Assembly: GCA_030694465.1 (NCBI GenBank)
Contig: JAUXYJ010000006.1
Coordinates: 1-64,000, forward strand
From: Deltaproteobacteria bacterium
Lineage (GTDB): Bacteria > Myxococcota_A > Polyangia > Polyangiales > Ga0077539
DNA length: 64,000 bases
Direction: 5' to 3'
The translations under genes were made by a program, and so were the position numbers. Every line of letters starts with the position of its first letter. The stretch's first letter is position 1. Below are positions 29,347 to 48,278 of the stretch, piece after piece. The notes under the pieces were generated by a model. It worked only from the letters and a program-made list of their open reading frames with translations, did not search any database and was not told the origin of the DNA.

Positions 29347-30201
29347 CTACCCTGCGTCAACGCCTGTCACGCTGCGCATCGCGACCCGAACGATCGCGGC
29401 CACGAGGGCGAGCCAAGCGACCGTGGTCGCGCGGCGGTCTTCTCGTGCGACGCGTCTCACTTCGGCGTGAAAAATCACTACGAAAAATCCAACGAAGGGC
29501 AGCGCGGGCAGAGGCCTACGCAGGAGCAAAACAGCGGCGCCTGCTGCGATCAATCCGAGCCAGACCGCGAGGCTCATCCGCGCGATGCTCAGGCGATGCT
29601 TGACCGCGGCCGCGAGGTAGAGCCCTGCAAAGATCCCGTCGCCGACGCCAAGCATGGGCTCGATGTGTCTCTGCGCGTCCACCGCGGCGCTCACCGCGAG
29701 GACCCGCAACCACCGTGGGTCTGGCGTCGTCGCGAGGGCGTGCGTGGGGCCCTCTGGCGAGAGCGCGCTCCACAGGTCCACGGCGCTCGAGAGCAACGCG
29801 ACGACCAGCAAATGGCTCGCAGCGGGCACGCGAGATCCCACCGCGACGCCCACCGTCGAACCCAACAATAACACCGCCGCGCTCGAGGCAAACGCAGCCC
29901 ACGGGTCTAAGTTAGGTGATAATACAAATCCCGCAATTGCCAGCAAAATTGCAGCGAGAATACCAATCCCAGTGTGCGCAATCGTCGGGGTCTCTCTGGC
30001 GCGCGAGGCCACCCAAGCGGCTACGCACGTCGCGGTGGCACAGCACCCATAGGCGAGGGCAAGGGATGCGAGCGGGTGTGCTGGCAACCAGACCGCGCAC
30101 GCATAGAGCAGCGCAAGCAGCGCGATGGCGGACGTGGGCGCCAGGGTGCGCAGGAGCTCGCGGACGGGCGCGCTCAAGGGCGCGCGTTGCTCGGTGCGCA
30201 C
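29347..30201 (-). CDS. Presenilin-like GxGD intramembrane aspartyl protease candidate
   Basis: The GTG at 30201 has AAAGG eight bases upstream and gives 284 residues with eight or nine hydrophobic helices. Three blocks match presenilin/SPP signatures in order. The first is AVDLWSALSPEGPTHAL (140-156, Asp142), resembling the presenilin helix-6 pattern YDLVAVLCPKGP. The second is LGVGDGIFAGLYL (184-196, Asp188), the GxGD motif. The third is PLPALPF (230-236), the PAL motif. Asp142 and Asp188 would be the catalytic pair. The Tyr of the usual YD is Val here. The start overlaps the upstream lipoprotein gene by 28 bp, so translation is probably coupled. Substrate unknown. A sequence profile search is needed to exclude chance. 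Confidence 0.78.
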   Translation of the reverse strand: MRTEQRAPLSAPVRELLRTLAPTSAIALLALLYACAVWLPAHPLASLALAYGCCATATCVAAWVASRARETPTIAHTGIGILAAILLAIAGFVLSPNLDPWAAFASSAAVLLLGSTVGVAVGSRVPAASHLLVVALLSSAVDLWSALSPEGPTHALATTPDPRWLRVLAVSAAVDAQRHIEPMLGVGDGIFAGLYLAAAVKHRLSIARMSLAVWLGLIAAGAAVLLLRRPLPALPFVGFFVVIFHAEVRRVAREDRRATTVAWLALVAAIVRVAMRSVTGVDAG

Positions 30202-33137
30202 TCGATGGACCTTTCGCCTCGTGGACCTGTTGGGCGCACGCGCAGCTCTCCGCCGTGTGCCTCGAGATCGAGGGGGCCGAGCCGTGAGATCGTCAGCTGA
30301 TTGCGTGCGTTTCCGAGCAACGAGTGCTCGACCGAGACACGGCGGATGCACCAACTGGCGTGATCAAAGCTGAGCTCAGTGCGCACGCCGTCGTGCCCGG
30401 TGAGCTCGGAGTTAGACGGCCCCACCGAGGCAAAAATTCGCACATTGTGTGCGTCCGCTTGTGTGATCGCGAGTAGAGAATTTGCTGGGATTTCTTCGTG
30501 ATAGTCACTGCAAATTCGCAGCCGTGTGGGGACCGGTGAGAGCGGCCGCGCCGGGGTCTCTGGGCTCTCGATAAAGTGCAGCGTGTGTGGGGGGCGTGCG
30601 GGCAGAATGACTAAGCCCTCGCGGGCTCCTTCGATGGCCAACGCACGCCACTCAAGCTCGCCTTCGGCCCAGACGAAGCTGCGGGTGGACTCGATCCTGC
30701 CGTTGCTGTCTACCCGCACGATCACGTCGGCGCGGCGCTCGCGGATGCTGCGCGGGTCGATGGTGCGCAGGCCTGTTGTGTCGTCGAGCGCGCCCGAGGC
30801 GTAGTGCAAGACGAAGTGCGTGGCGTCCCGGGCGTAGAGCGCGCGCAGAAGAAAGCTGAAGCCATGGCTCTGTGGGCGCGTGAGCCAATCGGTGGATGTC
30901 AGCGCCGTGGGTGGGTGGCTGCGCGTGAGGGCCGCGAGATCACAGCGCTGGGGTGTCATCGCGTTGCGCGTGGCAAAACACCGCTCAATCAGCGCGGTCT
31001 GTCCGCTGACCCAGCGGGCAAACCACTGGGACGAAGACACAGGAGCCTGCACGGACTCAAACGTGGGGAAGGCGCCGGTCGTGCGCGCGCTGAAGGGGCC
31101 CTGTGCGTTGTGACCGCCCCAGCTCCATCCGGTGGGTTGCGTCTGGATCCATCCTCCGGTGCCCATGCGATGGACCGGCGCACCCTGGGCTTGGACCTCG
31201 GTGGCGCCGCAACGATACGACGGAAAGCTCATGCCCGAGGGGCTCGCGCTGGCCGTCACCGCGGCTGCGCTGTGGGGCGTGACGGCCGCCGTGAGGACCC
31301 TCGGAGGGGGCTGACCGATGAGCGATTCGCTGGCCCAGACCATGAGGTTCTCGACGCTGCATGCGTAGGCCGTACAGAACACGCGGGGCGGGGTCTGATG
31401 GGGCAGGGGCGCGACACGGTGTGTGCTGTGCGGTTCGTGTGCAGCCAGACGCACGGGTTGCCAATGGATGCCGCCGTCTTCGGTGATCTGTGTGTGCGTG
31501 GGGTCTGTGCCGACGGCGACTCCGCGGAGGGCGGTCGCCATGGCGAGCTCTCGGGTGTTCGGTGGCAGAGGCCGCACGTTCAGCAGTTCGTGTGCGTTTC
31601 CCAAGACAAGATAGCGCTCTTGCCCACGGCTCCCGAGCGCCCAGAAGGTGCCGTCGGAGGTAAACGCGCCGCGCTCCATCGCGATCGAGGGCCGCAGGAT
31701 GCGAGAGCCCCCCACACGATCGCCAATGCGCTGTACGCGGAGGGGCACCGCGAGGCCTGTGCGCTGCAATCCCTCGCTGCTCTGAAACACAACGTAGGGC
31801 CCATACGCTGCGACAAACGTCGCGCGCCGGTCCACGTCCACGTTGTGCCAAGAGGTCCCGTCAAAGTGGCACCAGCGCGTGCTGTCGGCCGAAGCGCGCC
31901 CGTCGCAGGCCGAAAACTGCCAGATGCCTACGCCGTCATTCGAGGTCGCGAGGCTGCCCCACGCGAGCATCGACGGAGACGTGGGCAGCGCCAACCAGGG
32001 CTCGATGCCGTCGCCCACGTAGAGCGCCGCTTGGTGAGCCATGGTGGCGTCGCGGCAGATGGCCAGCAGACGATCACGTAGCGGCAGATAGCGACAGAGC
32101 AGCCCGGGAGGATCTACCCGCTGGAGGTCTTCGCCCACGCGCGAGATCCCAAGCTGATCTTCGCCATAGTGGTGCCCTCGCATCAGCGCGCCCAGTCGCT
32201 CGTTCGAGGGCCTCGGCGAGAGAGAGACATACACTCGGTCGCCCAACGCGAAGCTGTCGCGCATGAGCATTTTGGCGCGCGGCGCGGGGCCATCGCGCAG
32301 CAGCGCTTGCCTCAATTGCTGCGCGTCTGGGCCTCGATAGTCCCAGCCCGCGGCGATGCCCTCAAACGGCACAGGAGCACCGTGGGCCGTGACTCTCCAC
32401 TGCGAGTCTCGGGTCCGGACGACAAATCCCTCGCCCTCAGGCAGCACCTCAAGCGCGGCTTGCCCGCCGAGTGACATGGGCTCCCAGCCGAGACCACCGT
32501 CACGCGTGCGCAACAATTGCCCTGGTGAGAGCACCGCGAGGCCAAAGCGATCGGTCACAAATCCCGCATCAATAATCAGTCCATTGGCAAAGTTAGCTCG
32601 ACGCAAGCCCTCGCGTGAGCCGATCCACAGGTTGCGTGATTCGTCTCGGACCGTGAGCCTCCCTGTGCTCACGTAGGCGCTCTCTAAGTGCGCCCCGTCG
32701 GTTTGCCCTACGCGCGTCATGGGACCGGTGAAATAGCCGCTGTGATAGAGGGCGCCGTCGCGCGCTGCGAAGAGCCACCCGTCTGTCACACGCGCGCTCC
32801 CGAGCAGCCCTCCGTACGCGATGTCCGAGGCAAACGTGAGGGTCTCTTCACGCATTCGTGCGCGCATTCCGCCGTAGAGCACATAGAGCGTCCCGTCGGC
32901 CTCGATGCCCTCAGCTTGCGAGAGGGGTTCGAGCAATCCATCCGAGCCATAGATCTGCCAGCGGTCCGCGGGTTGTTGGGGCGCAGAGGGAAGAAGAGCA
33001 GAACGCGAATCACGATTTTCTGTGCGAATTTGCTGTGTCAATCGTGATGAGCGCCAAGCGACTCGCGAGCACGACCACAGCGCTGAGCCAGCCAGCACAG
33101 CCGCTGCGAGAGATCGTGAGTGAGTGCAGAGCCACAT
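30174..33137 (-). CDS. Large lipoprotein with Asp-box (BNR/YCF48-like) motifs
   Basis: The 987-residue protein starts MWLCTHSRSLAAAVLAG and has a lipobox-like ALWSC, so it is probably exported and lipid-anchored. It has repeated beta-propeller-like stretches with Asp-box patterns such as LRTRDGGLGWEPM and ITEDGGIHWQPV, found in sialidase/YCF48-type propellers. Enzyme residues of sialidases were not recognised. The 3' end overlaps the presenilin-like gene by 28 bp, and a Ser/Thr kinase lies 54 bp upstream on the same strand. Function unknown. It is a candidate partner of the membrane protease. Confidence 0.75.
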   Translation of the reverse strand: MWLCTHSRSLAAAVLAGSALWSCSRVAWRSSRLTQQIRTENRDSRSALLPSAPQQPADRWQIYGSDGLLEPLSQAEGIEADGTLYVLYGGMRARMREETLTFASDIAYGGLLGSARVTDGWLFAARDGALYHSGYFTGPMTRVGQTDGAHLESAYVSTGRLTVRDESRNLWIGSREGLRRANFANGLIIDAGFVTDRFGLAVLSPGQLLRTRDGGLGWEPMSLGGQAALEVLPEGEGFVVRTRDSQWRVTAHGAPVPFEGIAAGWDYRGPDAQQLRQALLRDGPAPRAKMLMRDSFALGDRVYVSLSPRPSNERLGALMRGHHYGEDQLGISRVGEDLQRVDPPGLLCRYLPLRDRLLAICRDATMAHQAALYVGDGIEPWLALPTSPSMLAWGSLATSNDGVGIWQFSACDGRASADSTRWCHFDGTSWHNVDVDRRATFVAAYGPYVVFQSSEGLQRTGLAVPLRVQRIGDRVGGSRILRPSIAMERGAFTSDGTFWALGSRGQERYLVLGNAHELLNVRPLPPNTRELAMATALRGVAVGTDPTHTQITEDGGIHWQPVRLAAHEPHSTHRVAPLPHQTPPRVFCTAYACSVENLMVWASESLIGQPPPRVLTAAVTPHSAAAVTASASPSGMSFPSYRCGATEVQAQGAPVHRMGTGGWIQTQPTGWSWGGHNAQGPFSARTTGAFPTFESVQAPVSSSQWFARWVSGQTALIERCFATRNAMTPQRCDLAALTRSHPPTALTSTDWLTRPQSHGFSFLLRALYARDATHFVLHYASGALDDTTGLRTIDPRSIRERRADVIVRVDSNGRIESTRSFVWAEGELEWRALAIEGAREGLVILPARPPHTLHFIESPETPARPLSPVPTRLRICSDYHEEIPANSLLAITQADAHNVRIFASVGPSNSELTGHDGVRTELSFDHASWCIRRVSVEHSLLGNARNQLTISRLGPLDLEAHGGELRVRPTGPRGERSIECAPSNARP

Positions 33138-33190: not shown

Positions 33191-34675
33191 TCAGCGCAAG
33201 ATCGCGAGGACTGACACCGCGAGCGACGAAACAAACAACGCTGTACCGCCCACAAACATCGAGAAGCCAAGCCACGGATTGCGGTCGACAAAGCGGCCTG
33301 CTTCACGGGTCATGCGCTTGGTCATGGTGACAGGGCATTGGACGTGGATTTTGCCAGTCAGAATGTCCTGCAGGTAGTTCACCAGCTCGGTCGCGTTCTG
33401 AAATCGCAGGTTGGGATCACTCTGCAATCCCTTGGCAAACAAGTGCAGATACTCAGCGGGCGGGAGCTGCGCGCCCTGGTACCACCCGTGGGTGGTCACG
33501 GCCGATGCGCCATCAAGAACACCCGCGATCATCGCGGCCACCGTGGTCTTGTCGTACAAATAGTGCCGCAGACTCAAGAGCTCGTGCAGCAAGACCACCG
33601 CGGCGAAGAGGTCGGTGCGCTCGTCGATTTGGTCGTTGAGCCCACGCGCCTGCTCGGGTGCCATGTACGCGGGTGTTCCGATCAGTGCGCCGTGACGCGT
33701 CGTAAACGCGCGGCCCCGGGGGCTCTCGGTGATGTCCTTTTCGTCGGTGTCTCCGCCGCGTTCGCCGGCCTTCTTGGTGGACTTGGCGATGCCCCAGTCC
33801 ATGAGCACCACCTCGCCGTAGCGTCCCACCATCACGTTGGCGGGCTTGATGTCCCGGTGGACAATGCCGTTGGCGTGCGCGTACTGAAGCGCGCGCAAAA
33901 CCCCCATAAACACCTCGACGCGGTACTCGACCGAGTACTTCGCGAGGTACTCTGCGTTGCCCTCGCGGAGCTTGTCGATCACGCCTTCGAGCGTCTCGCC
34001 CTCGAGGTATTTCATCACCAAAAAGAAGCGCCCCGAGCTGTCGAGACCCACATCATGGATGGGCACAATGTTGGGGTGCTCAAGCTGCCCCACGATGTGC
34101 ACTTCGTCGACGAACCGCGCGATGGCCGCGGGGGAGAGTGACTCGGTGTACATGCGCTTGACCGCGACCCTTCGGCCGATGTCTTCGTCGAGCGCGAGGT
34201 CGACTTCGCCCATGCCGCCCACGCCGAGCTGCTTGACCGAGGCGTAGCGCTCTTTGTTGCGAGGGATCAGGCGCAGCCCATGGTCGTCTTCTTCGACCGA
34301 GGGCAAGACCGTGGTGACGCGCCCGCTGAGCGTCTGTGTGGGCGAAGCGGTCGAGAGCTTGCTGGGCTCGGAGTCGGCCGCGAGCGTTGCGTCAAACGGA
34401 CTGTGCCCATGGTTTTCTTCGTTCTCGTTGCGTGTACGCAACACCTCGGGGAGCACGGCGCTCGCGGGCGTCATCGGTGGGCTCACAACGGGGACCACGC
34501 GCGGGGCGCTCACAGGAGAGCTCGAAGGAGCAATCGACGGAGGGGCGTCTTGATCGTAGCCGACGGTCTGTCTCAGCGAGTCGAGGACCTTGGCTGGCTT
34601 TTGAGCCACCGGAGGGGGCGCGTTGTCGTACCCCATCGTCTGCGCGAGGGGATTGATGGGAGGTTTGTTGCTCAT
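33191..34675 (-). CDS. Ser/Thr protein kinase with duplicated N-terminal QTxGYD motif and C-terminal TM helices
   Basis: The ATG at 34675 gives 494 residues. The N-terminal tail has two similar segments, AQTMGYDNAPP (11-21) and RQTVGYDQDAPP (35-46), then a Pro/Ser-rich linker. The kinase domain (about 145-410) has LGVGGMGEVDLA, VAVKRM, HRDIKPAN, MDWGIAK (DFG replaced by DWG, Asp kept) and MAPEQARG. The C-terminus has hydrophobic helices (FSMFVGGTALFVSSLAVSV). It is probably membrane-anchored and active. It leads a minus-strand run that continues into the lipoprotein, the presenilin-like protein, hydratase and thiolase. Confidence 0.9.
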   Translation of the reverse strand: MSNKPPINPLAQTMGYDNAPPPVAQKPAKVLDSLRQTVGYDQDAPPSIAPSSSPVSAPRVVPVVSPPMTPASAVLPEVLRTRNENEENHGHSPFDATLAADSEPSKLSTASPTQTLSGRVTTVLPSVEEDDHGLRLIPRNKERYASVKQLGVGGMGEVDLALDEDIGRRVAVKRMYTESLSPAAIARFVDEVHIVGQLEHPNIVPIHDVGLDSSGRFFLVMKYLEGETLEGVIDKLREGNAEYLAKYSVEYRVEVFMGVLRALQYAHANGIVHRDIKPANVMVGRYGEVVLMDWGIAKSTKKAGERGGDTDEKDITESPRGRAFTTRHGALIGTPAYMAPEQARGLNDQIDERTDLFAAVVLLHELLSLRHYLYDKTTVAAMIAGVLDGASAVTTHGWYQGAQLPPAEYLHLFAKGLQSDPNLRFQNATELVNYLQDILTGKIHVQCPVTMTKRMTREAGRFVDRNPWLGFSMFVGGTALFVSSLAVSVLAILR

Positions 34676-34960
34676 GAGGACGAGGACTCCGGTGATGCGC
34701 GAGCGAAGAAGAGCGACGGATTGCGAACGATAGTGACACACCGCTTGCGTTGGGAGATGTGCTTGCGATTCTTCACAAAGCGAGACCCACACGAGACGCC
34801 ACGGTGCGCAAGGTGGCTAGCGGATCATCCGGCGAGCGCGTTGTGTGCATCGTGAACCGTCATTCACTCTGCAAATATCCCAGCCAAACAGTGACGAACG
34901 ACGGCAGCAATCGGTCTAACTTCGCGTAGTGTCTACCCAGACAGGATCGCCCAACAGCCT

Positions 34961-37900
34961 ATGCTTCGAGCACACTCTCTCTTCGGTTTTGCCCTCGCCT
35001 CTGCGGGTCTCTCGGCCCTTGTATTGGCTCCCTCCACGGCGTGTGCGCAGGGACAGAGCGGTGTCACGCTGGGTGCGAATCTCAGCGTGGGCGCAACGAG
35101 CAGCGCAGTGGCAACGCGCGCGCAGGCCAACGCGTCGCTCGCGGTAAGGGGCCCCACGCGCAGCGAAATCGCCGCGATTTTTGGGCAGGTTCCGCTGCGC
35201 GTGAGCGCCTATGTGGGCGCGGGTTGGACCTCGTCGTGGGAGCGCCCGAGGCTCGATGGCTACGCGGTTGAGCTCGGTGGATCGCTCGGTGCGTGGGCCA
35301 CGCGGTATCTCGCGATCGAGGCCCGCGGGAGTTATCTCGGGCTGCTCCACCGCGTGAGTGACGCGAACCTCGATGGTCGCGCGGACACGGCGGTCCCGAC
35401 GCTCAATGGCCTGCTCGCGATGGGACAACTGCGGCTCAGGTTGCTTGAAGACGAGCTGAAGCTCCGCCGCGCATGGAGCCTCACGGTGGGCGGCGGCGCG
35501 TTTGTTCCGTTGGCCAACACGGACACACGAGGGGTCGCGCCGGTGCTCGAGGCGTCGATCGCGCGGCACGTCGGTGTGCTCGACCAGCATGGCTCTGCGG
35601 CGGATATTTCGGTGGAGCTTCGTGCGCGAACGGGTCTCGGTTCGCTTGCAGATTACCAGAGTATTATCGCGTCGTTGGGTGTCGCATGGGATGGCAACCA
35701 GCCCACTGGGTCAGCGCCAAGCCACAGCGTCGGTTACCGACCGGGGCACACCGCGGGCCTCGAGGCGCTCGTCGGTGGCTTCTTCTCGCCCTTCGCGAGA
35801 CCCATGAGCAGCGCGCTCTTGAACGGCGCAGGGGGCGGCGTGGCGGCGAGCGCGGGGATTGTATTTTCACCTGGATTTGAGCTCATCGCGCGAGGTGGTT
35901 ACCTCGGCCGTGGCCCTGGGCGCACCGGCGATGACTGGCTGCACATGGGCTTCGTTGAGGGCGGGCTGCGTGCACGTTGGTACCTGTTCTTTGCAGAGGG
36001 CGATGGCGGGATCACCGCGCCCTTCGGCACCTATCGAGATCAGGTCCAGACCACCCCGCATGTGAGCGCCGCGTTGGGCCTTCGCGTGCCCTTCAACGCC
36101 CCCAACGAGCCCGGATTTCGCTTTGTGACCGCGGTGCGCGGCCGCGTGGGTCTGAGCCCCGAGCGCACGATGGACGGGCTGTTCTTTACCGCGGGCTTCG
36201 AGTTCGAGGGGGGCGATCATCACGCGGCGTTTCCGCAGCCCGTGCGGCTGTCCGCGCCGAGCGTCAGTGGGTCGCTCGCGGCGCGTCCGTTGTCGCCCTC
36301 TGGGCCTGGCGCGCGTGGAGCAGGGGCGATCACGCTCTTTGAGCCAGCGCGTATTCCGCTAGCGATTTCTCTAGGGATTCAGGGTGGCTACATCGCCCCC
36401 ATGCGCGGGATCCCGTTGCAACGCACGCAGGGTGAGCTCTCGGTGACGGCGAGCTACACGCCCTGGCATTGGCTCGCGCTCGACGCGCGCGCGGCGTACA
36501 TGGGCGCAGCGGGGCGCACCGAAGACCTCGACAGTGACGGAACACAAGACGTCGTTCGCCCAGGATTTGGCGGGGTCTTGCTCTCTCTCGGGCCGCGCTT
36601 TCGCTGGCTCACTGACACGTACAGCCAGCGCACGGGGTGGAGCTTTGCGCTCGCCGGCGGCGTGATGTTGCCCGCGGTGGGGAGTGCCACCGTGCGCGGC
36701 GTGGGCGCGACGGCCGAGGCGGCGATCGCGCGCGAGGTGGCCTTCTCGGTTGGACCACGGAGCGTCTTCGGAGTCGGGCTTGAGCTGCGAGGTCGCACGG
36801 GATTTGGCGCGTGGGGCGACTATCAATCGGTGCTCTTTGGAGCGAAATTATGGTGGGAAGGCGACGTCGCGTTGGGTCGCTCGTCCGCAGAGGCCTCGGT
36901 GCCAGGATGGCGTCCGGGACACACGCTGGCTCTGGATGGCGGCGCGGCGATTTTTCCGCTCGGGACACGTCGCAGCAACGGCGCGAACTATTTTGGCACC
37001 CTCGGTGCGCACGTTGGGCTGCGCGCTGGACTTGTGTTTTCGCCGGGATTTGAGTGGTCCCTGCGGGGCGGTTGGCTCCATCGTCCGGGAGCAGGCACAC
37101 GCGATGACCTCGCCGCGCTCACCCTTGAGACGGGGCCACGCATGCGAATGGGCTGGATTTCGGCTCGCGCAATGGCCGGCTATGCCTCGGTCATCGGCAC
37201 GCACCGAGACGAGGTCGCCAGCGTGTTCTATGCCGGCGGTGGCGTCGAAGGCCGCTTCGCCATCACCGAACACTGGCGGATTTTGCTGGGTCTCGAGGGT
37301 CGCTTCGCCCTCGCCAGTGAGCGCGCGCTTGACCACATCGCGTTTACGCTGGGCTTCGAGTTCGAGGGAGGGCCTCACCGCGCTGTCCCGTTTGCGAGCG
37401 CGCCGAGCACACCTCCGCCGCGCACGCTCCCATCGTTTGAGCGCCCCAACGTCACGCCAAACCAGGCGCCTACGCCCGGAGTCAACGTGGTGACTCAGCG
37501 ACCCGGCGACGTCGCCGGAGGTGCCACGGTAGGTGCCACGGTGGGTGCCTCGGTGGGCGTCATTGCGCCCGTGCGCATCGCGCTCTCTACGGGTATTTTT
37601 GCAGGGCCACGTGGCATTGGGACGCACGACCTCGACGGCATGGGCGGCGCGCATCACCTCACGGTGGGCTGGGTCCCGAGGCGCTGGTTGTCTCTTGAGC
37701 TCAACGGCGGGATTATGGCGAGCGCGGGCCATCGGCAAGACCGCAACGGGGACGGCGTGGTCGAGCTCGCGCGCGATGGGCTGGTGAATTTCACGCTCAC
37801 CGCGGGCCCTAGGTTTCGCGTGCTCGTCGATGATTTTGCGCGCTACGGCTGGAGCTTCGCGCTGGCCGGCGGCGTGATGGGTGGCGCTGCCGGAGTGGGA

Positions 37901-39070
37901 CCCTTGGGGGAGGTCGCGATCGGACGACACCTGGCCGCGATCACGGACTCGCACATGGCGCTCGAGTTTGGCGTCGAAGCGCGGGCACGCTTGGGCTGGA
38001 TTCCGCAGGCGAATACCACGGGATCTCTCGGTGAGTTCGCTCCCTCGATGACCGTCGCGCTCACCGCTGCGTGGGAGGCCAATGTGCACCGCAACAGCGC
38101 GCCCATGCACGACGCGCAGCTCGGTGAGACGCTCTCGCTTGAGTTCACCCCTGGGCTCGCGCTCGGCGGCGCTCTTCGCAACGGTCGCGCCCTGGGCTCG
38201 AGCATCAATCACCTGGCCGCACGCACGGGGCTTGTGTTTTCGCCGGGCTTTGAGTGGAGCGCGCGCGCTGGCTACGCGTTTCGCTCGGGCGAAAAAGACA
38301 CCGCGCAGTTCGAAGCGCTCTTTGCCGAGAGCGGCCCGAGGTTTCGTTGGGGATGGGCCTACGCAGAGCTCGCCGCGGGCTATGCGGGCTCGTTCGGTGC
38401 GTACCGCGACGAGGTCAACGGGTCCGCCATCGCGAGCGCCGCAGCGGGCGTGCGCTTTGGTCTCACCGGTGTGGGTCATCACTTTGGCGGATATGCTGGC
38501 GTGCAAGCGCGTGTTGGGCTGAGCGACGAGCGCGCGTACGACTCGTTGAGCCTGCAATTGGGCTTCGAGTTCGAAGGTGGACGCAGGCAAGCGGCGCCGT
38601 TTCCGCGGTGGTCTCTGCCAGAGTCACCGCGCGCGAATATCCCGACCCAGCGGCACGAGCTCGTGATCCCGAGGATCCCGACGCAGGTGCAAGCCGGCGG
38701 ATCTGTAGGTGTACAAATTCCCACGCAGGTTGAGCTCAACCTGGGCGGCACGGCTTCGCTCTCGGTGTTTGGCACCCAAGCCCAGCGCACGGTGCTTGTC
38801 CCAGGCGCCACGGTCGACAGCGCACCTTTTGGCTCTGGAATTTTGCTCACCGTTGAAGAGCTCAATGGTCTGCTCCCCCAGATGGACCCCTCGGTACGCG
38901 CGCTCCACGTTGAGCTCCGCACGGGCTCGGGAGCCCAAGCCCCCGCGCTCGAATCCGCCCTGCGCGCGGTGCTCAGCGCGCGCTACGGTGCGAGCCTCGT
39001 CGTGACCTCTCGCGTGGCCATCGCGGCGAGCGGCTCGGGGCGCTTTGAGCTGACCCTCTCTGCGCGCTAG
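34961..39070 (+). CDS. Giant protein of three tandem outer-membrane-like repeats
   Basis: The 1369-residue protein starts with a signal peptide (cleavage near STACA, residue 29). Three units of about 390-400 residues follow, each closing with GFEFEGG (FEFEGG starts at residues 413, 799 and 1202). Every unit contains FSPGFE, a GWSFALAGG or similar strand, and a Dx[DN]xDG loop (at 134, 522 and 927). Strand spacing and Gly/Tyr/Arg content suggest beta-barrels. Linkers are Pro/Thr-rich. The last 130 residues (VEELNGLLPQMDPSV) form a separate C-terminal domain. No family was recognised. The divergent neighbour is a Ser/Thr kinase. Confidence 0.75.
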   Translation: MLRAHSLFGFALASAGLSALVLAPSTACAQGQSGVTLGANLSVGATSSAVATRAQANASLAVRGPTRSEIAAIFGQVPLRVSAYVGAGWTSSWERPRLDGYAVELGGSLGAWATRYLAIEARGSYLGLLHRVSDANLDGRADTAVPTLNGLLAMGQLRLRLLEDELKLRRAWSLTVGGGAFVPLANTDTRGVAPVLEASIARHVGVLDQHGSAADISVELRARTGLGSLADYQSIIASLGVAWDGNQPTGSAPSHSVGYRPGHTAGLEALVGGFFSPFARPMSSALLNGAGGGVAASAGIVFSPGFELIARGGYLGRGPGRTGDDWLHMGFVEGGLRARWYLFFAEGDGGITAPFGTYRDQVQTTPHVSAALGLRVPFNAPNEPGFRFVTAVRGRVGLSPERTMDGLFFTAGFEFEGGDHHAAFPQPVRLSAPSVSGSLAARPLSPSGPGARGAGAITLFEPARIPLAISLGIQGGYIAPMRGIPLQRTQGELSVTASYTPWHWLALDARAAYMGAAGRTEDLDSDGTQDVVRPGFGGVLLSLGPRFRWLTDTYSQRTGWSFALAGGVMLPAVGSATVRGVGATAEAAIAREVAFSVGPRSVFGVGLELRGRTGFGAWGDYQSVLFGAKLWWEGDVALGRSSAEASVPGWRPGHTLALDGGAAIFPLGTRRSNGANYFGTLGAHVGLRAGLVFSPGFEWSLRGGWLHRPGAGTRDDLAALTLETGPRMRMGWISARAMAGYASVIGTHRDEVASVFYAGGGVEGRFAITEHWRILLGLEGRFALASERALDHIAFTLGFEFEGGPHRAVPFASAPSTPPPRTLPSFERPNVTPNQAPTPGVNVVTQRPGDVAGGATVGATVGASVGVIAPVRIALSTGIFAGPRGIGTHDLDGMGGAHHLTVGWVPRRWLSLELNGGIMASAGHRQDRNGDGVVELARDGLVNFTLTAGPRFRVLVDDFARYGWSFALAGGVMGGAAGVGPLGEVAIGRHLAAITDSHMALEFGVEARARLGWIPQANTTGSLGEFAPSMTVALTAAWEANVHRNSAPMHDAQLGETLSLEFTPGLALGGALRNGRALGSSINHLAARTGLVFSPGFEWSARAGYAFRSGEKDTAQFEALFAESGPRFRWGWAYAELAAGYAGSFGAYRDEVNGSAIASAAAGVRFGLTGVGHHFGGYAGVQARVGLSDERAYDSLSLQLGFEFEGGRRQAAPFPRWSLPESPRANIPTQRHELVIPRIPTQVQAGGSVGVQIPTQVELNLGGTASLSVFGTQAQRTVLVPGATVDSAPFGSGILLTVEELNGLLPQMDPSVRALHVELRTGSGAQAPALESALRAVLSARYGASLVVTSRVAIAASGSGRFELTLSAR

Positions 39071-39369: not shown

Positions 39370-41082
39370 GTGACGACCGCAAAAACAACGGCTGCCGCAC
39401 CGTCGGCGAAGAAGTCCTCTGATCCCTACCTTGGTCGTGTCGTCGCAGGACGGTATCGGCTTGAGCAGCGCCTCGGTGAAGGCGGCATGGGGGTGGTCTA
39501 CAAAGCACGCCATGTGCTCATCGATCGCACGGTCGCGCTTAAGCTCATTCGCCCTGATTTACGTGGCGAATCGCATTTGCGTGCCTGGATGCTTCGTGAG
39601 GCTCGCGCGGCCAACCGCGTGGACCACGCGCACATTATTGACATCCATGACATCGGCGAGACCGAAGAGGGAGAGCTCTATCTTGTGATGGAGTTTCTCG
39701 TGGGCTCCCCGCTGTCGACGGACATCTCGAAGGGCCCGTTTCCGATCGCGCGCGCGGTGGATATTTTGGAGCAGATGGCCGCCGCCCTGGGTCGCGCACA
39801 CGACCTCGGGGTGGTGCACCGAGATCTCAAGAGCGACAACATTCACCTGACCAATCGCGGGGGTCGCAAGGACTTCGTCAAGATCTTGGACTTTGGTCTC
39901 GCCGCGCTCGCGCGAGATCCCAGGCTCGCCCCGAAGGGCGCAGTGTTTGGCACGCCCGAGTACATGGCGCCCGAGCAAGCCCGCGGCGAAGACGCGATCC
40001 CGCAGAGCGACCTGTACGCGCTCGGGATCTTGTTCTTCGAGATGGTCACTGGGCAGCTGCCGTTTCGCTCGCACGACCGCGACACGTTGCTCGAGATGCA
40101 GCGCACAGGGGCGACGCCTAACCCGCGCACGCTCAGGCCCGACTTGGCCCCTGCGGCCGAGAGCATCATCCTCAAGCTGCTGCAAAAATCCCTAGATAAA
40201 CGCTACAAAGACGCCCACCATCTCTCTGAAGATCTCAAGGCACTTCAGCGCTCGATGCCGTCTTCTCCGTGGGAGGTCTTGCACCTCTCGGACGCGCCCG
40301 CACAGGCCCCTGCGGCGCCCCCTGCGCCAAGCGCTGGCGTCGCAGAGTGGGCGACACGCGCAGCGCATTTCGCGCGCATGGTGGCCCGCGCGTGGCCACA
40401 GGGCGACGTCCCCTCCGAGGTGGCGACCAACCTGGACCTCACGTGGAGTCTCGCCTCGCGCGCGTCGCGATTGGAGGGCGAGGTCTCGTCGCTCTCGCGT
40501 CGGCTTGAGGCGCTCGAAAAGCGTGGTCGTGCGTTGCGTGCTGAGATCGGCCGAAAGGTCGAAGAGCTCGCCCACGAAGAGTCGCGCGTGCTGCGAGACA
40601 CGTCGGCCGAGGCAGAGAAGGTCGCGGACCTTCGTGAGCGCGTATCGACCAATGAGCGCGCGATGCATGCAGCAAAATTGCAGGCAGATTCGCTTGATCG
40701 CGCGGGCGGTTCGGGCGCCACCTTGCGCACTGCGTACGAGCAAATTGGCTCTGCCGTCGCGCGCCTTGAGATTCGCCGCGAGCAGCTCGCCGAGCGCGAG
40801 ACCCGCTCTGCAAAGAAAGAGACCCAGGCGCGGGACCTTCGTCGGCAGATTGAAGAGCTACGTGCGCAGCTCGCGCGCTACGCCGAGGCGCTCGAAGACG
40901 ATTTGGCACAGGGCCGTGAGCGAGTCACCAACAAGACCCGCGAGGGCCTCGCGCTTGAGAAGCAGTTTGGTGACGCGAGCGTTGTGCTTGTGAAGCATCT
41001 GCGCGGCCGGCCTGAGTGCCGTGATCTCTTCGATGAGCTCACGCGCAAGCAGAGCGACGGGATGGGCGAAGACCGGGGCTAG
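39370..41082 (+). CDS. Ser/Thr protein kinase with long C-terminal coiled coil
   Basis: The GTG at 39370 gives 570 residues. The kinase domain spans about 25-295, with LGEGGMGVVYKA, catalytic Lys in VALKLI, HRDLKSDN, DFGLAA and MAPEQARG. A Pro/Ala linker (about 310-330) leads to a heptad-rich region (about 360-540, LEGEVSSLSRRLEALEKRG and similar), a long coiled coil. No transmembrane helix is visible, so it is cytoplasmic. The coiled coil probably mediates dimers or scaffold binding. Confidence 0.9.
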   Translation: MTTAKTTAAAPSAKKSSDPYLGRVVAGRYRLEQRLGEGGMGVVYKARHVLIDRTVALKLIRPDLRGESHLRAWMLREARAANRVDHAHIIDIHDIGETEEGELYLVMEFLVGSPLSTDISKGPFPIARAVDILEQMAAALGRAHDLGVVHRDLKSDNIHLTNRGGRKDFVKILDFGLAALARDPRLAPKGAVFGTPEYMAPEQARGEDAIPQSDLYALGILFFEMVTGQLPFRSHDRDTLLEMQRTGATPNPRTLRPDLAPAAESIILKLLQKSLDKRYKDAHHLSEDLKALQRSMPSSPWEVLHLSDAPAQAPAAPPAPSAGVAEWATRAAHFARMVARAWPQGDVPSEVATNLDLTWSLASRASRLEGEVSSLSRRLEALEKRGRALRAEIGRKVEELAHEESRVLRDTSAEAEKVADLRERVSTNERAMHAAKLQADSLDRAGGSGATLRTAYEQIGSAVARLEIRREQLAERETRSAKKETQARDLRRQIEELRAQLARYAEALEDDLAQGRERVTNKTREGLALEKQFGDASVVLVKHLRGRPECRDLFDELTRKQSDGMGEDRG

Positions 41083-41155: not shown

Positions 41156-41863
41156 GTGACTGAACGGCGATTCATTGACGGCAAGGCGGGCAAGGGCAAA
41201 GACAAGCCGAGCACCGAGCGTGTTGTGAGCAAGCGTCGCACGGCGACGGATGACAAGCGCGAGCGGATCTTGCGCGCTGCCGTCAAGGTGTTTGCAAAGA
41301 AGGGCTTCTACGCCTCGCGGGTGAGTGAGATCGCCAAGGCCGCGGGCGTGGCCGATGGCACGATCTATCTCTACTTCGAGAGCAAAGACGACGTGCTCGA
41401 GTCGCTCTTTGAAGAGCGCAGCGAGCGGCTGCTCGAGGTGCTGCGCGGTGAGCTCGCTAAGAACGTAGATCCGCCTGCGAAATTGCAGCGAATGATCGAG
41501 ATTCAGTTAGGGCTCATTGATGGCCACCGAGACCTCGCCGAGGTGATCACAGTGAACCTCCGGCAGAGCACAAGGCTCTTGCGGCAGTACGGCTCCAAGC
41601 GCTTTGTCGAGTACCTTGAGCTCCTCGCGTCGGTGGTGCACGAGGGGCAAGAGACGGGGCACTTTCGGTTGGATGTCTCACCGCGGGTGATGGCGCGCGT
41701 GCTCTTTGGTGCGCTCGATGGCTTGGTGCTCACCTGGGCGCTCGGCGATGGGCGCGTGGGAGGGCTCGAGAAGACCGCGGCGCAGCTGGTGAGCGTGCTG
41801 GTCCGTGGGCTCGAGCGTCGCGCCGAGGACGGTGGGATCGAGCCGGGGATTCAGCGCTCGTAG
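41156..41863 (+). CDS. TetR-family transcriptional regulator (FadR-like)
   Basis: The 235-residue protein has a Lys-rich N-terminus of about 35 residues, then the TetR helix-turn-helix: RILRAAVKVFAKKGF, SEIAKAAGVADGTIYLYF. The C-terminal ligand domain (LLRQYGSKRFVEYL, LFGALDGLVLTWALG) resembles FadR/PsrA-type regulators of fatty-acid metabolism, which respond to acyl-CoA. That ligand is inference. The gene converges with the MBL hydrolase and overlaps it by 13 bp. Confidence 0.85.
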   Translation: MTERRFIDGKAGKGKDKPSTERVVSKRRTATDDKRERILRAAVKVFAKKGFYASRVSEIAKAAGVADGTIYLYFESKDDVLESLFEERSERLLEVLRGELAKNVDPPAKLQRMIEIQLGLIDGHRDLAEVITVNLRQSTRLLRQYGSKRFVEYLELLASVVHEGQETGHFRLDVSPRVMARVLFGALDGLVLTWALGDGRVGGLEKTAAQLVSVLVRGLERRAEDGGIEPGIQRS

Positions 41864-44737: not shown

Positions 44738-47320
44738 TCACTGGCACGGACCTGTGCAGCCCTGACACTCACCGCAGCGATAGCACTGCCCCGCTGGACA
44801 ACCGCACGAGCCGTTGGTGCAAATGCGCCCATCCGCTGCGCCGCACGAGGTGCCGTTGGTGACCGGCGTGCCGCCGCCGCAAAAGAGCGTCCCGGCCGTG
44901 CACATCCACGTCGAGCCCGTGTAGCAAGTGCGCGCGCACGCGGTCCCTGGAATGGGACCACACGCTGCGCCGCAGGCTGCTTGGCCGGCAGGGCACACGC
45001 AGCTCGTCCCGTTGCAGATGTAGGTCGCACCACACACGGTGCCGCAGGCGCCGCAGTTACTCGTGGTGTTGAGCATGGCCTCGCACCCGTTGACGGGGCT
45101 CCCGTCACAGTCGCCTAGCCCCGCGTTGCAAGTGAACCCACACGTTCCGGCAGCGCATGTCGGCGAGGCGTTGAAGATGGCAGGGCACGTGAGGCCACAG
45201 CCGTTGCAGTGGCTGGTGTTGGTGTTGGTGTTGACCTCGCATCCGTTGGCCGGGTTGCTGTCGCAGTTTGCGAAGCTCGTGTTGCAACCACCCACCTGGC
45301 ACGTCCCCGCACCACACGTCCCCGTGCCATTCGCGATCGTGCACGTGCTGCCACACGCGCCACAGTTGCTCGTGCTGTTGAGCGGCGCTTCGCATCCGTT
45401 GGCAGGGTTGCTATCGCAGTTTCCCCAGCCAGCTTGACAGCTCGCGAGCGCGCATGTGCCGGCGCTGCACGCCGCGTTGCCGTTGGCATACGAGCATGAG
45501 CGACCGCAGACCCCACAGTTGCTCGTGCTGTTGAGCGCGGTCTCGCATCCGTTGGCCGGGTTGCCGTCACAGTTGCCAAAGCCCGCGTTGCAGCTCGCGA
45601 CTTGGCACGTCCCCGAACCACACGTCCCGGTGCCATTCGCGATCGTGCACGCGCTGCCGCAGGCGCCACAGTTGCTCGTGGTGTTGAGCGCGGTCTCGCA
45701 TCCGTTGGCCGGGTTGCCGTCGCAGTTGCCAAAGCCTGTCTGACAGCTCGCGAGCGCGCATGTGCCTGCGCTACACGCCGCGGTCCCGTTGGCGTACGAG
45801 CACGTGCGACCACACGCGCCACAGTGCGTGATGCTCGTTAGGGTGGTCTCACACCCGTTGGCTGCGTTGCCATCGCAGTTGCCAAAGCCCGCGTTGCACG
45901 AGGAGCCACATGCCCCCATGGCGCAGCTCGCGACCGCGTTGGCCGTTGAGGCACACGCGTTGCCGCAGGCTCCGCAGTGCGCGAGGGTATTTTGTGTGTC
46001 GACGCAGGACATCCCGCAGCGGGTCTGGCCTGCGGTGCATCCCGATGCACAGACGCCACGTGCACCGTCACACACGGGGGTCGCGCCCGAGCACGCAGTC
46101 CCGCACGCGCCGCAATTGCTCGCGGTGTTGAGCGAGGCCTCGCATCCGTTGGCGGGGTTGCCGTCGCAGTCTCCAAAGCCCGCGTTGCATGTGTAACGGC
46201 ATGCGCCAGTACCGCAGGTCACCGCGCTGTTTGCACGCGCTGCGCAGGGCATTCCGCATGCGCCACAGTGGCTCAGGTCGCTCTGTGTATCGACGCACGC
46301 CATGCCACAGCGTGACTGGCCTGTTGCACAGCCCGAGACGCAGCGGTTCGCCATCGCGTCGCACATCGGAGCGGCGCCCGAACACGCTGTCCCACACGCG
46401 CCGCAATTGCTCGCGGTGTTGAGCGAGGCCTCGCATCCGTTGGCTGCGTTGCCATCGCAGTTGCCAAACTCAGGGTTGCACGTGTACGCACATTGGCCTG
46501 ATGGATTGCAGACTTGCGCGCTGTTTGCACGCGGCCCGCAGGTGCCACAGGTGCCACCGCAGCCGTCGTCTCCGCACATACGCCCAGCGCAATTGGGAAC
46601 ACACACAGTGTCCATCGGCACCGATGCCTCTGCATCGGCATCGATGCCGATCGATGCGTCGGGTGCAGAGGCTTCTGTGACGTCCATGGGCTCGACCACG
46701 TCCGGCGAGGGGCCTGTGTCCATGGTGTCCATCGTGTGCGACGCGTCCGAGGCGATCGAGGCGTCGGGGTCAAAGACGGTGGTGGGCGCGTCGGGCATGA
46801 CACACTCGGCGTTGTTGCCGCAGGTGCGGTCTTGCAGCTCGCACAAGCGCGCGAGGGTGCAGTTGGTCTCACCCGGAGGACACCCCGTCGCGGGCTGCCC
46901 ACAGCGAATGGACAAGAACACGCGGGTCTGTGTGGTCTGGTTGGGCGTAAACCGCACGCGGACGGTGCGTGTAAATCGAAGGGGTGTGGTGCTCCCGGCA
47001 GAGGGCGGGATGTCCACGTCGAGCCACACGACCACCGAGCTGTCCCTGGGCGCGTCGGTCTGCGGCAAGACGGTGAAGGACATCGGAAATTCTGTTTGAA
47101 TTCCGTGGGTTGCGATCCCTCGCGAGAACTGCAGTGAGCGCATCGAGGTGGCCCGAAGGTCTGCACCCAGGCGCGCGGTGATCCCGATGGGTCGCGCATG
47201 ATCAAGGTCTGTCTCGACGACAAAGACCACCGCCGTCGCAGGGCGCACGCATTGCGTAAGCGCCAAGCAGACCGTCGCGAGCAACGTGGATCGAGCAACG
47301 TGAGCGTTGAGAAATCTCAT
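44738..47320 (-). CDS. Cys-rich tandem-repeat lipoprotein
   Basis: The ATG at 47320 gives 860 residues. A signal peptide ends in LALTQC, a lipobox-like site. After a beta-rich N-terminal domain and an Asp-rich linker, the chain carries eight copies of a unit containing NCDGNPANGCE or close variants, followed by an NCGACG motif. The period is about 51 residues (roughly 153 bp). Two shorter CGMACVDTQ-type units lie among them. The six or so Cys per unit imply disulphides or metal. Such repeats occur in surface proteins of myxobacteria (compared here to Stig1-like/MopE-like families). Function unknown. Confidence 0.82.
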   Translation of the reverse strand: MRFLNAHVARSTLLATVCLALTQCVRPATAVVFVVETDLDHARPIGITARLGADLRATSMRSLQFSRGIATHGIQTEFPMSFTVLPQTDAPRDSSVVVWLDVDIPPSAGSTTPLRFTRTVRVRFTPNQTTQTRVFLSIRCGQPATGCPPGETNCTLARLCELQDRTCGNNAECVMPDAPTTVFDPDASIASDASHTMDTMDTGPSPDVVEPMDVTEASAPDASIGIDADAEASVPMDTVCVPNCAGRMCGDDGCGGTCGTCGPRANSAQVCNPSGQCAYTCNPEFGNCDGNAANGCEASLNTASNCGACGTACSGAAPMCDAMANRCVSGCATGQSRCGMACVDTQSDLSHCGACGMPCAARANSAVTCGTGACRYTCNAGFGDCDGNPANGCEASLNTASNCGACGTACSGATPVCDGARGVCASGCTAGQTRCGMSCVDTQNTLAHCGACGNACASTANAVASCAMGACGSSCNAGFGNCDGNAANGCETTLTSITHCGACGRTCSYANGTAACSAGTCALASCQTGFGNCDGNPANGCETALNTTSNCGACGSACTIANGTGTCGSGTCQVASCNAGFGNCDGNPANGCETALNSTSNCGVCGRSCSYANGNAACSAGTCALASCQAGWGNCDSNPANGCEAPLNSTSNCGACGSTCTIANGTGTCGAGTCQVGGCNTSFANCDSNPANGCEVNTNTNTSHCNGCGLTCPAIFNASPTCAAGTCGFTCNAGLGDCDGSPVNGCEAMLNTTSNCGACGTVCGATYICNGTSCVCPAGQAACGAACGPIPGTACARTCYTGSTWMCTAGTLFCGGGTPVTNGTSCGAADGRICTNGSCGCPAGQCYRCGECQGCTGPCQ
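45040..46470. repeat. Coding tandem repeats, period about 153 bp
   Basis: The element CATCCGTTGG or a near copy recurs at about 45240, 45393, 45546, 45700 and 45852, with spacing 152-154 bp, and less regularly to about 46435. These encode the repeated NGCE segments of the Cys-rich lipoprotein. Copies at 45360-45800 are nearly identical, which suggests recent duplication or recombination. Confidence 0.8.
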
Positions 47321-47387
47321 GACAGAGAGCCAGTGTACGCCGATTCTTTCGCCTGTGTTTCGCCAGATGGCATAACGCAGAGCACCC

Positions 47388-48278
47388 ATGAGCGACCGAC
47401 GTGTGCGCGAGAAGATCGAAGAAGACCAGGCTCTGGCTTCGCTGCTAGCGCCCAAAACGACCAGCGCCGTCGTGCCCTACCGTGACGCATCCCACGTCGG
47501 ACGGCCCACGACAGCGCACCGAATGGACAGCGCGGAGCAGCGCGGACGTCGGCTGTGGGGCCTCGGGAGCGCTGTGATTTCGCTGGGATCTTTTGCCTCG
47601 ATCCCCTTCGCCTTGACCGAGAGCAACTTCACCGCGGGGATCGCGACGGTGCTCGGGCTTGGCTTCGCCGGGCTGGCCTCGATGGCGTTGCGAGCGTACG
47701 CGCGTGAGCGCGGCGCCGCGGTGGCGACGTTTGACCACGGCCTAGCGCTTCGTGTGGCCGACGAGCGCTTGGACATCGCGTGGGAGTCCATCGCGGTGGT
47801 CAAAGCGGACATGCAGACCGACCGCGCGGGGGTGATCCGTGCAGCGTCGCTCACGAGTCTTGTGCTTGAGGGAGGGCGCGAGGTGCCCATCCCGCGCGCG
47901 CTCGAAGACGCGACGTCGCTCGCGCAGCAGGTGTTTGCGCGCACGCAGACGCACTTGCTCGCGCAGGCGCACGCGGCGCTCGACAGGGGCTCAAGTGTCT
48001 CGTTTGGCTCGATCTTGTGGACCCCCAAGGGGGTGAGCGTGAGCGGCGTCGTGTTGCCCACGCATGCGCGATTGGCCCTGGTTTTTGAGGGACCTTTTGC
48101 GCATTTGGTCGCAGTGGACGAGCCCGCGCATGCGCTCAGCGTGCTCATTGAGACGCTGCACAATCCGCATGTGCTCTTGGCCTTGATCGCCAACCCCTGG
48201 CGACCGAGCGCTGAGCCGTTGCCCGCACCGTCCGCCGGAGAGACCGAAGCGCCAGACGAGCCCGCCCCGAGCGCGTGA
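47388..48278 (+). CDS. Hypothetical protein with two central membrane helices
   Basis: The 296-residue protein has a charged N-terminus, two hydrophobic helices (about 58-105, LGSAVISLGSFASIPF and ATVLGLGFAGLASMAL), and a soluble domain of about 190 residues. That domain (TFDHGLALRVADERL, IAWESIAVVKADM) resembles bacterial PH-like domains near membranes, though this is not firm. The Pro-rich end ADEPAPSA-like tail is low complexity. It converges with the fabH-like gene, with one base between the stops. Confidence 0.65.
   Translation: MSDRRVREKIEEDQALASLLAPKTTSAVVPYRDASHVGRPTTAHRMDSAEQRGRRLWGLGSAVISLGSFASIPFALTESNFTAGIATVLGLGFAGLASMALRAYARERGAAVATFDHGLALRVADERLDIAWESIAVVKADMQTDRAGVIRAASLTSLVLEGGREVPIPRALEDATSLAQQVFARTQTHLLAQAHAALDRGSSVSFGSILWTPKGVSVSGVVLPTHARLALVFEGPFAHLVAVDEPAHALSVLIETLHNPHVLLALIANPWRPSAEPLPAPSAGETEAPDEPAPSA

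Follow-up and report, generated by a model that had tools for sequence, protein, structure and literature searches.

The locus at 34961–39070 (plus strand) of the window, a 64,000-nt stretch of DNA from a myxobacterium recorded as a deltaproteobacterium, raises the question of how a single polypeptide is assembled from repeated outer-membrane-like segments, how many membrane domains it holds and what such a chain might do. An earlier note had described the product as three tandem barrel-like units in one chain, each with an EF-hand-like loop, followed by a distinct C-terminal domain. Here we examine its repeats, predicted fold, relatives and genomic neighbours.

A probably secreted chain of repeated units

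The open reading frame begins with ATG and encodes 1369 amino acids. Reading of the sequence suggests a signal peptide (residues 1–29; 34961–35047), with a basic start, a hydrophobic core and an AxA-type end, and predicted cleavage at about A29/Q30; the signal peptides of the orthologues end SFA/QS and TMA/QS. Scans of the protein against Pfam and NCBIfam returned no family match, a Pfam scan of one unit and five relatives likewise gave none, and a sequence search of solved structures found no match. The family is thus one without a Pfam or NCBIfam model, and it lacks a name. Most likely, the protein is a secreted chain with a predicted location in the outer membrane. Its composition is 0.2% lysine, 0.1% cysteine and 7.9% arginine.

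Blastp comparison of the pieces aligned the three units over their full length (roughly 341 residues each) at 33–37% identity (E 1e-27 to 1e-51), and three motifs recur at matching places 386–405 residues apart: Dx[DN]xDG (beginning at residues 134, 522 and 927), FSPGFE (302, 693 and 1093) and GFEFEGG (412, 798 and 1201). The repeats described in the earlier note are therefore borne out by self-alignment. Inside every unit, we also find two homologous halves, a feature absent from that note, which we denote A and B. A profile alignment built from the 12 units of four orthologues pairs the halves over 135 collinear columns (P 1.7e-5), with a modest probability of 78% that we count against the six-barrel reading given below, and, by eye, the halves also match in their GPRfRw, ExRxRxG and closing aromatic-EG stretches. 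Because the profile alignment and these stretches pair the halves, the repeat pattern is, by alignment, A–B three times over.

In unit 1, repeat alignment places half A1 at 35186–35740, its barrel being assigned by homology to unit 2, and repeat and half alignment places B1, which runs from FSPGFE to GFEFEGG, at 35741–36214. A Pro/Ser/Gly-rich linker whose length varies among orthologues (36215–36349) leads to unit 2, consisting of A2 (36350–36913) and B2 (36914–37372), both delimited by AlphaFold2 and structure match. A second variable linker, rich in Pro, Thr, Val and Gly (37373–37564), connects to unit 3, in which repeat and half alignment delimits A3 (37565–38119) and B3 (38120–38581). All these features lie on the plus strand.

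Predicted fold and number of barrels

AlphaFold2 was run on unit 2 with nine alignment rows drawn from the window and two orthologues, yielding a model with a pLDDT of 81 and a pTM of 0.59. The model contains 16 strands split 8 + 8 between residues 4–171 and 190–340, joined by a low-confidence linker (about 172–189; pLDDT below 50 at 178–186), and turns of two to four residues alternate with longer loops of 7–17 residues, as in outer-membrane barrels. With VIA-align, barrel A2 (model residues 6–169) superposed on PagL with a Z score of 16.2 and an rmsd of 2.2, and barrel B2 (model residues 186–341) on NspA (Z 17.8, rmsd 2.7), OprF (Z 16.5, rmsd 1.9) and OmpA (Z 16–17). The simplest reading of this model is that unit 2 forms two closed 8-stranded barrels, the mutual placement of which is uncertain because the pTM is 0.59.

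A count of 16 strands per unit would also suit a single larger barrel of the porin kind in each, giving three 16-stranded barrels in all, as the count of three in the earlier note implies, and OmpG and porins do head the Foldseek list for the unit 2 model. However, the alignments to these larger barrels reach a TM score of only about 0.2 at an rmsd of 17–24, which argues against a single larger barrel per unit, whereas the two halves separately fit 8-stranded barrels at Z 16–18, are homologous to each other and are divided by the low-confidence linker. We therefore regard the 16-stranded arrangement as improbable.

For the other units, a model of residues 258–1369, for which the alignment had three rows only, reached a pLDDT of 25, so that no one model shows the six barrels together, and four of the six proposed barrels are accordingly assigned by homology and strand periodicity. 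Across the 12 unit sequences, 14 of the 16 strands are free of gaps, and the in–out alternation of hydrophobicity along the mapped strands is pronounced in every unit (z 5.0–6.3, from 5.0 for the whole of unit 1 to 6.3 for the whole of unit 3; matched by 0 of 2000 shuffles). From the homology, the gap-free strands and this alternation, we infer that units 1 and 3 share the fold of unit 2. The protein as a whole would then comprise six 8-stranded barrels, arranged as three A–B pairs, and a C-terminal domain, an architecture that we consider probable. The idea of tandem outer-membrane barrel units in one chain is thereby upheld, but the evidence favours a count of six, two in each unit, over three.

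An acidic loop conserved in the predicted A barrels

The three Dx[DN]xDG motifs occupy the same alignment columns, one in each A half: DANLDGRAD in A1 (35360–35386), DLDSDGTQD between strands 3 and 4 of A2 (36524–36550) and DRNGDGVVE in A3 (37739–37765), all on the plus strand. Such motifs are expected 0.0098 times in a protein of this composition, and 0 of 5000 composition shuffles reached three. All three loops fit the extended form Dx[DN]xDG-xx-[DE]. In the unit 2 model, the loop sits in a β-hairpin, with strands on both sides. Outer-membrane barrels usually have both ends in the periplasm, and because this topology turns the strand 3–4 loop outwards, it is predicted to be extracellular loop 2, as are its counterparts in A1 and A3.

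The term 'EF-hand-like', applied to these loops in the earlier note, suits the loop itself and not the fold around it, since strands take the place of the EF-hand helices in the unit 2 model, and position 12, which is acidic in the 12-residue loop of an EF-hand, is acidic in none of the three loops in the window. The Dx[DN]xDG motif is indifferent to the structure that flanks it, and in strand-flanked sites of propellers an additional ligand lies two residues further on (PMC3123361). These 'calcium blades' resemble the loops described here in combining Dx[DN]xDG, a further acidic side chain two residues later and a position between strands, but they sit in propellers (PMC3123361), whereas our motif, known from sequence and model, lies in a predicted barrel loop. 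Most units of the orthologues keep the extended motif, with one position changed to N or T in some, and it is degenerate in some orthologues. Both two-unit proteins carry it in their first unit, and three single-unit relatives, which belong to other taxonomic families, have it too; in the remaining relatives it is missing or altered. Calcium binding, as previously suggested, is plausible given this conservation and the match to the strand-flanked calcium form, and the acidic loops of the A barrels probably constitute Ca2+ sites.

The C-terminal domain and the relatives of the family

The proposal of a distinct C-terminal domain is confirmed: a domain at 38792–39067 (plus strand) is common to one- and two-unit relatives, and its profile matches here at 3.5e-22, the window sequence itself being one of the profile's seven rows. 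Pfam returned no match to this domain, and a Pfam search up to E 1 found no OmpA_C domain in the barrel protein or in five relatives. In single-unit relatives, the small C-terminal domain often ends FTIWPPG[AT]R.

One neighbouring genus in the same taxonomic family has full-length three-unit orthologues, 55–60% identical, in three genomes; two of the records are LNEO01000296.1 and JAEUKI010000075.1, from Deltaproteobacteria/Myxococcales metagenome-assembled genomes. Further relatives, in other taxonomic families, came from profile searches with the unit (184 genomes from the order and 318 from the class) and with the C-terminal domain (across the class); the C-terminal profile matched 22 genomes and the barrel profile 13. 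Among these relatives, L035 and L038 have two units, L034, at the end of a contig, has at least two, and fifteen loci carry a single unit. The C-terminal domain, whose profile finds relatives across the class, is present in all the relative frames except L035, L038 and L031. Single-unit homologues, sought as suggested in the earlier note, do exist, most of them with the shared C-terminal domain. The family has so far been found only within this class. Two long frames were rejected as larger multi-barrel proteins, those of 2257 codons (L082, genome G080) and 1447 codons (L083, genome G249), each of which holds one recognizable unit; their upstream parts look like unused GC-rich frame.

A tree built from 21 units unites all twelve that belong to three-unit proteins (100/100); inside this clade the units sort by position, with a group for each of positions 1, 2 and 3 (100/100), and position 2 is sister to position 3 (96/93). 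Because the units group by position within one three-unit group, the triplication would predate the divergence of the two genera and be distinct from the two-unit proteins found in other taxonomic families, barring an earlier homogenization of the units. As most relatives elsewhere in the class carry a single unit, and others two, the three-unit form is, on this comparison, a lineage-specific amplification. The resulting natural series runs from one barrel pair through two to three, most members sharing the C-terminal domain, and would allow direct tests of how barrel number matters, how the BAM machinery assembles such proteins and how multi-barrel chains fold.

Comparison with known barrel proteins and a proposed role

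Each half of unit 2 resembles the 8-stranded barrels of OmpA, OprF, NspA and PagL in fold, but those proteins are single barrels, with about 7–15% identity to the unit halves, and OmpA and OprF carry the peptidoglycan-binding OmpA_C domain that Pfam does not find in our protein. Multi-barrel outer-membrane proteins were set up as a class by Solan et al. (PNAS 118:e2104059118, 2021), as cited in two later accounts (PMC11494523, PMC9603273). As characterized there, members of the class resemble the present protein, as predicted, in being single secreted chains with several barrel domains connected via the periplasm, which tempers the description of the fusion as uncommon in the earlier note: that was fair, but such chains had already been described as a class in 2021. 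The studied example GfcD has two barrels, of 12 and 13 strands (PMC11494523), in contrast to the six predicted 8-stranded barrels in three repeated pairs. More than one closed barrel per chain, the hallmark of the class, is found here by prediction for unit 2 and by repeat homology for the rest. We judge the protein to be a large new member of the class, unusual but not unprecedented. In the 2021 survey, combinations that include 8-stranded barrels reportedly predominate, as do amplifications confined to particular lineages.

In the mechanism that we propose, the protein would cross the inner membrane by secretion and pass to the BAM machinery, to be inserted in the outer membrane, as we infer, as six consecutive OmpA-type barrels in three A–B pairs. 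Because the strand count is even in all the barrels, the linkers and the C-terminal domain would stay periplasmic and the long loops would point outwards; outer loop 2 of each A barrel, with its Dx[DN]xDG-xx-[DE] motif, probably binds Ca2+. This architecture may have originated when a one-unit ancestor with two barrels was amplified in tandem within a single branch of the taxonomic family. The product would be a raft whose small barrels are connected on the periplasmic side and present calcium-stabilized loops, which might serve in adhesion, recognition or envelope stiffening; as 8-stranded barrels have no wide pore, a structural or interactive role would be preferred over that of a porin. A scaffold or interaction role at the surface or in the envelope is our leading guess, held tentatively.

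A more specific possibility, which we hold to be rather unlikely, is an adhesin-like surface protein, whose calcium-stabilized loops bind other cells, prey or polysaccharide. A predatory or social lifestyle is common in the phylum, and the predicted outward loops carry a conserved acidic site, but Pfam and NCBIfam scans found no adhesion domain and the modelled loops are short (7–17 residues). Doubtful to a similar degree is the bolder view that the proteins form an undescribed family of asymmetric barrel pairs, six barrels in one branch, in which the calcium loops and the periplasmic C-terminal domain would make a single-chain, calcium-regulated raft.

Neighbouring genes

The barrel gene lies between two genes for Ser/Thr protein kinases: a divergent one with a C-terminal hydrophobic segment (33191–34792, minus strand; Pfam Pkinase, 4.1e-37, and synteny) and one downstream (39370–41082, plus strand; Pfam Pkinase, 2.2e-46). 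Further downstream is a TetR-like regulator, named from sequence reading only (41156–41863, plus strand). This order, kinase (minus), barrel gene (plus), kinase (plus) and TetR (plus), is kept in all four genomes with a three-unit protein, and the closest relatives of the upstream kinase (57–61%) adjoin a barrel gene only, an association that is suggestive in these few genomes. Both observations would fit a calcium-responsive signalling surface protein working with the neighbouring kinases. The downstream kinase, however, is also encoded in the seven other genomes of the taxonomic family examined, where its neighbourhood lacks the barrel gene, so that this kinase was rejected as a dedicated partner. 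Moreover, no recognizable copies of the neighbours lie near one two-unit relative and two of the three single-unit relatives examined, the third having only a distant kinase match nearby (31–34%), and a sample of four genomes from two genera is too small in organisms whose genomes abound in kinases. A signalling role is therefore considerably less probable, in our estimate, than the scaffold or interaction role preferred above.

Two other genes of the window encode long proteins on the minus strand. That at 30174–33137 specifies 987 residues with a weak BNR/YCF48-like match (E 0.016) and no clear family, and that at 44738–47455 specifies a secreted-looking protein of 905 residues with many tandem Cys-rich repeats of the type GNCDGNPANGCE...NCGACG.
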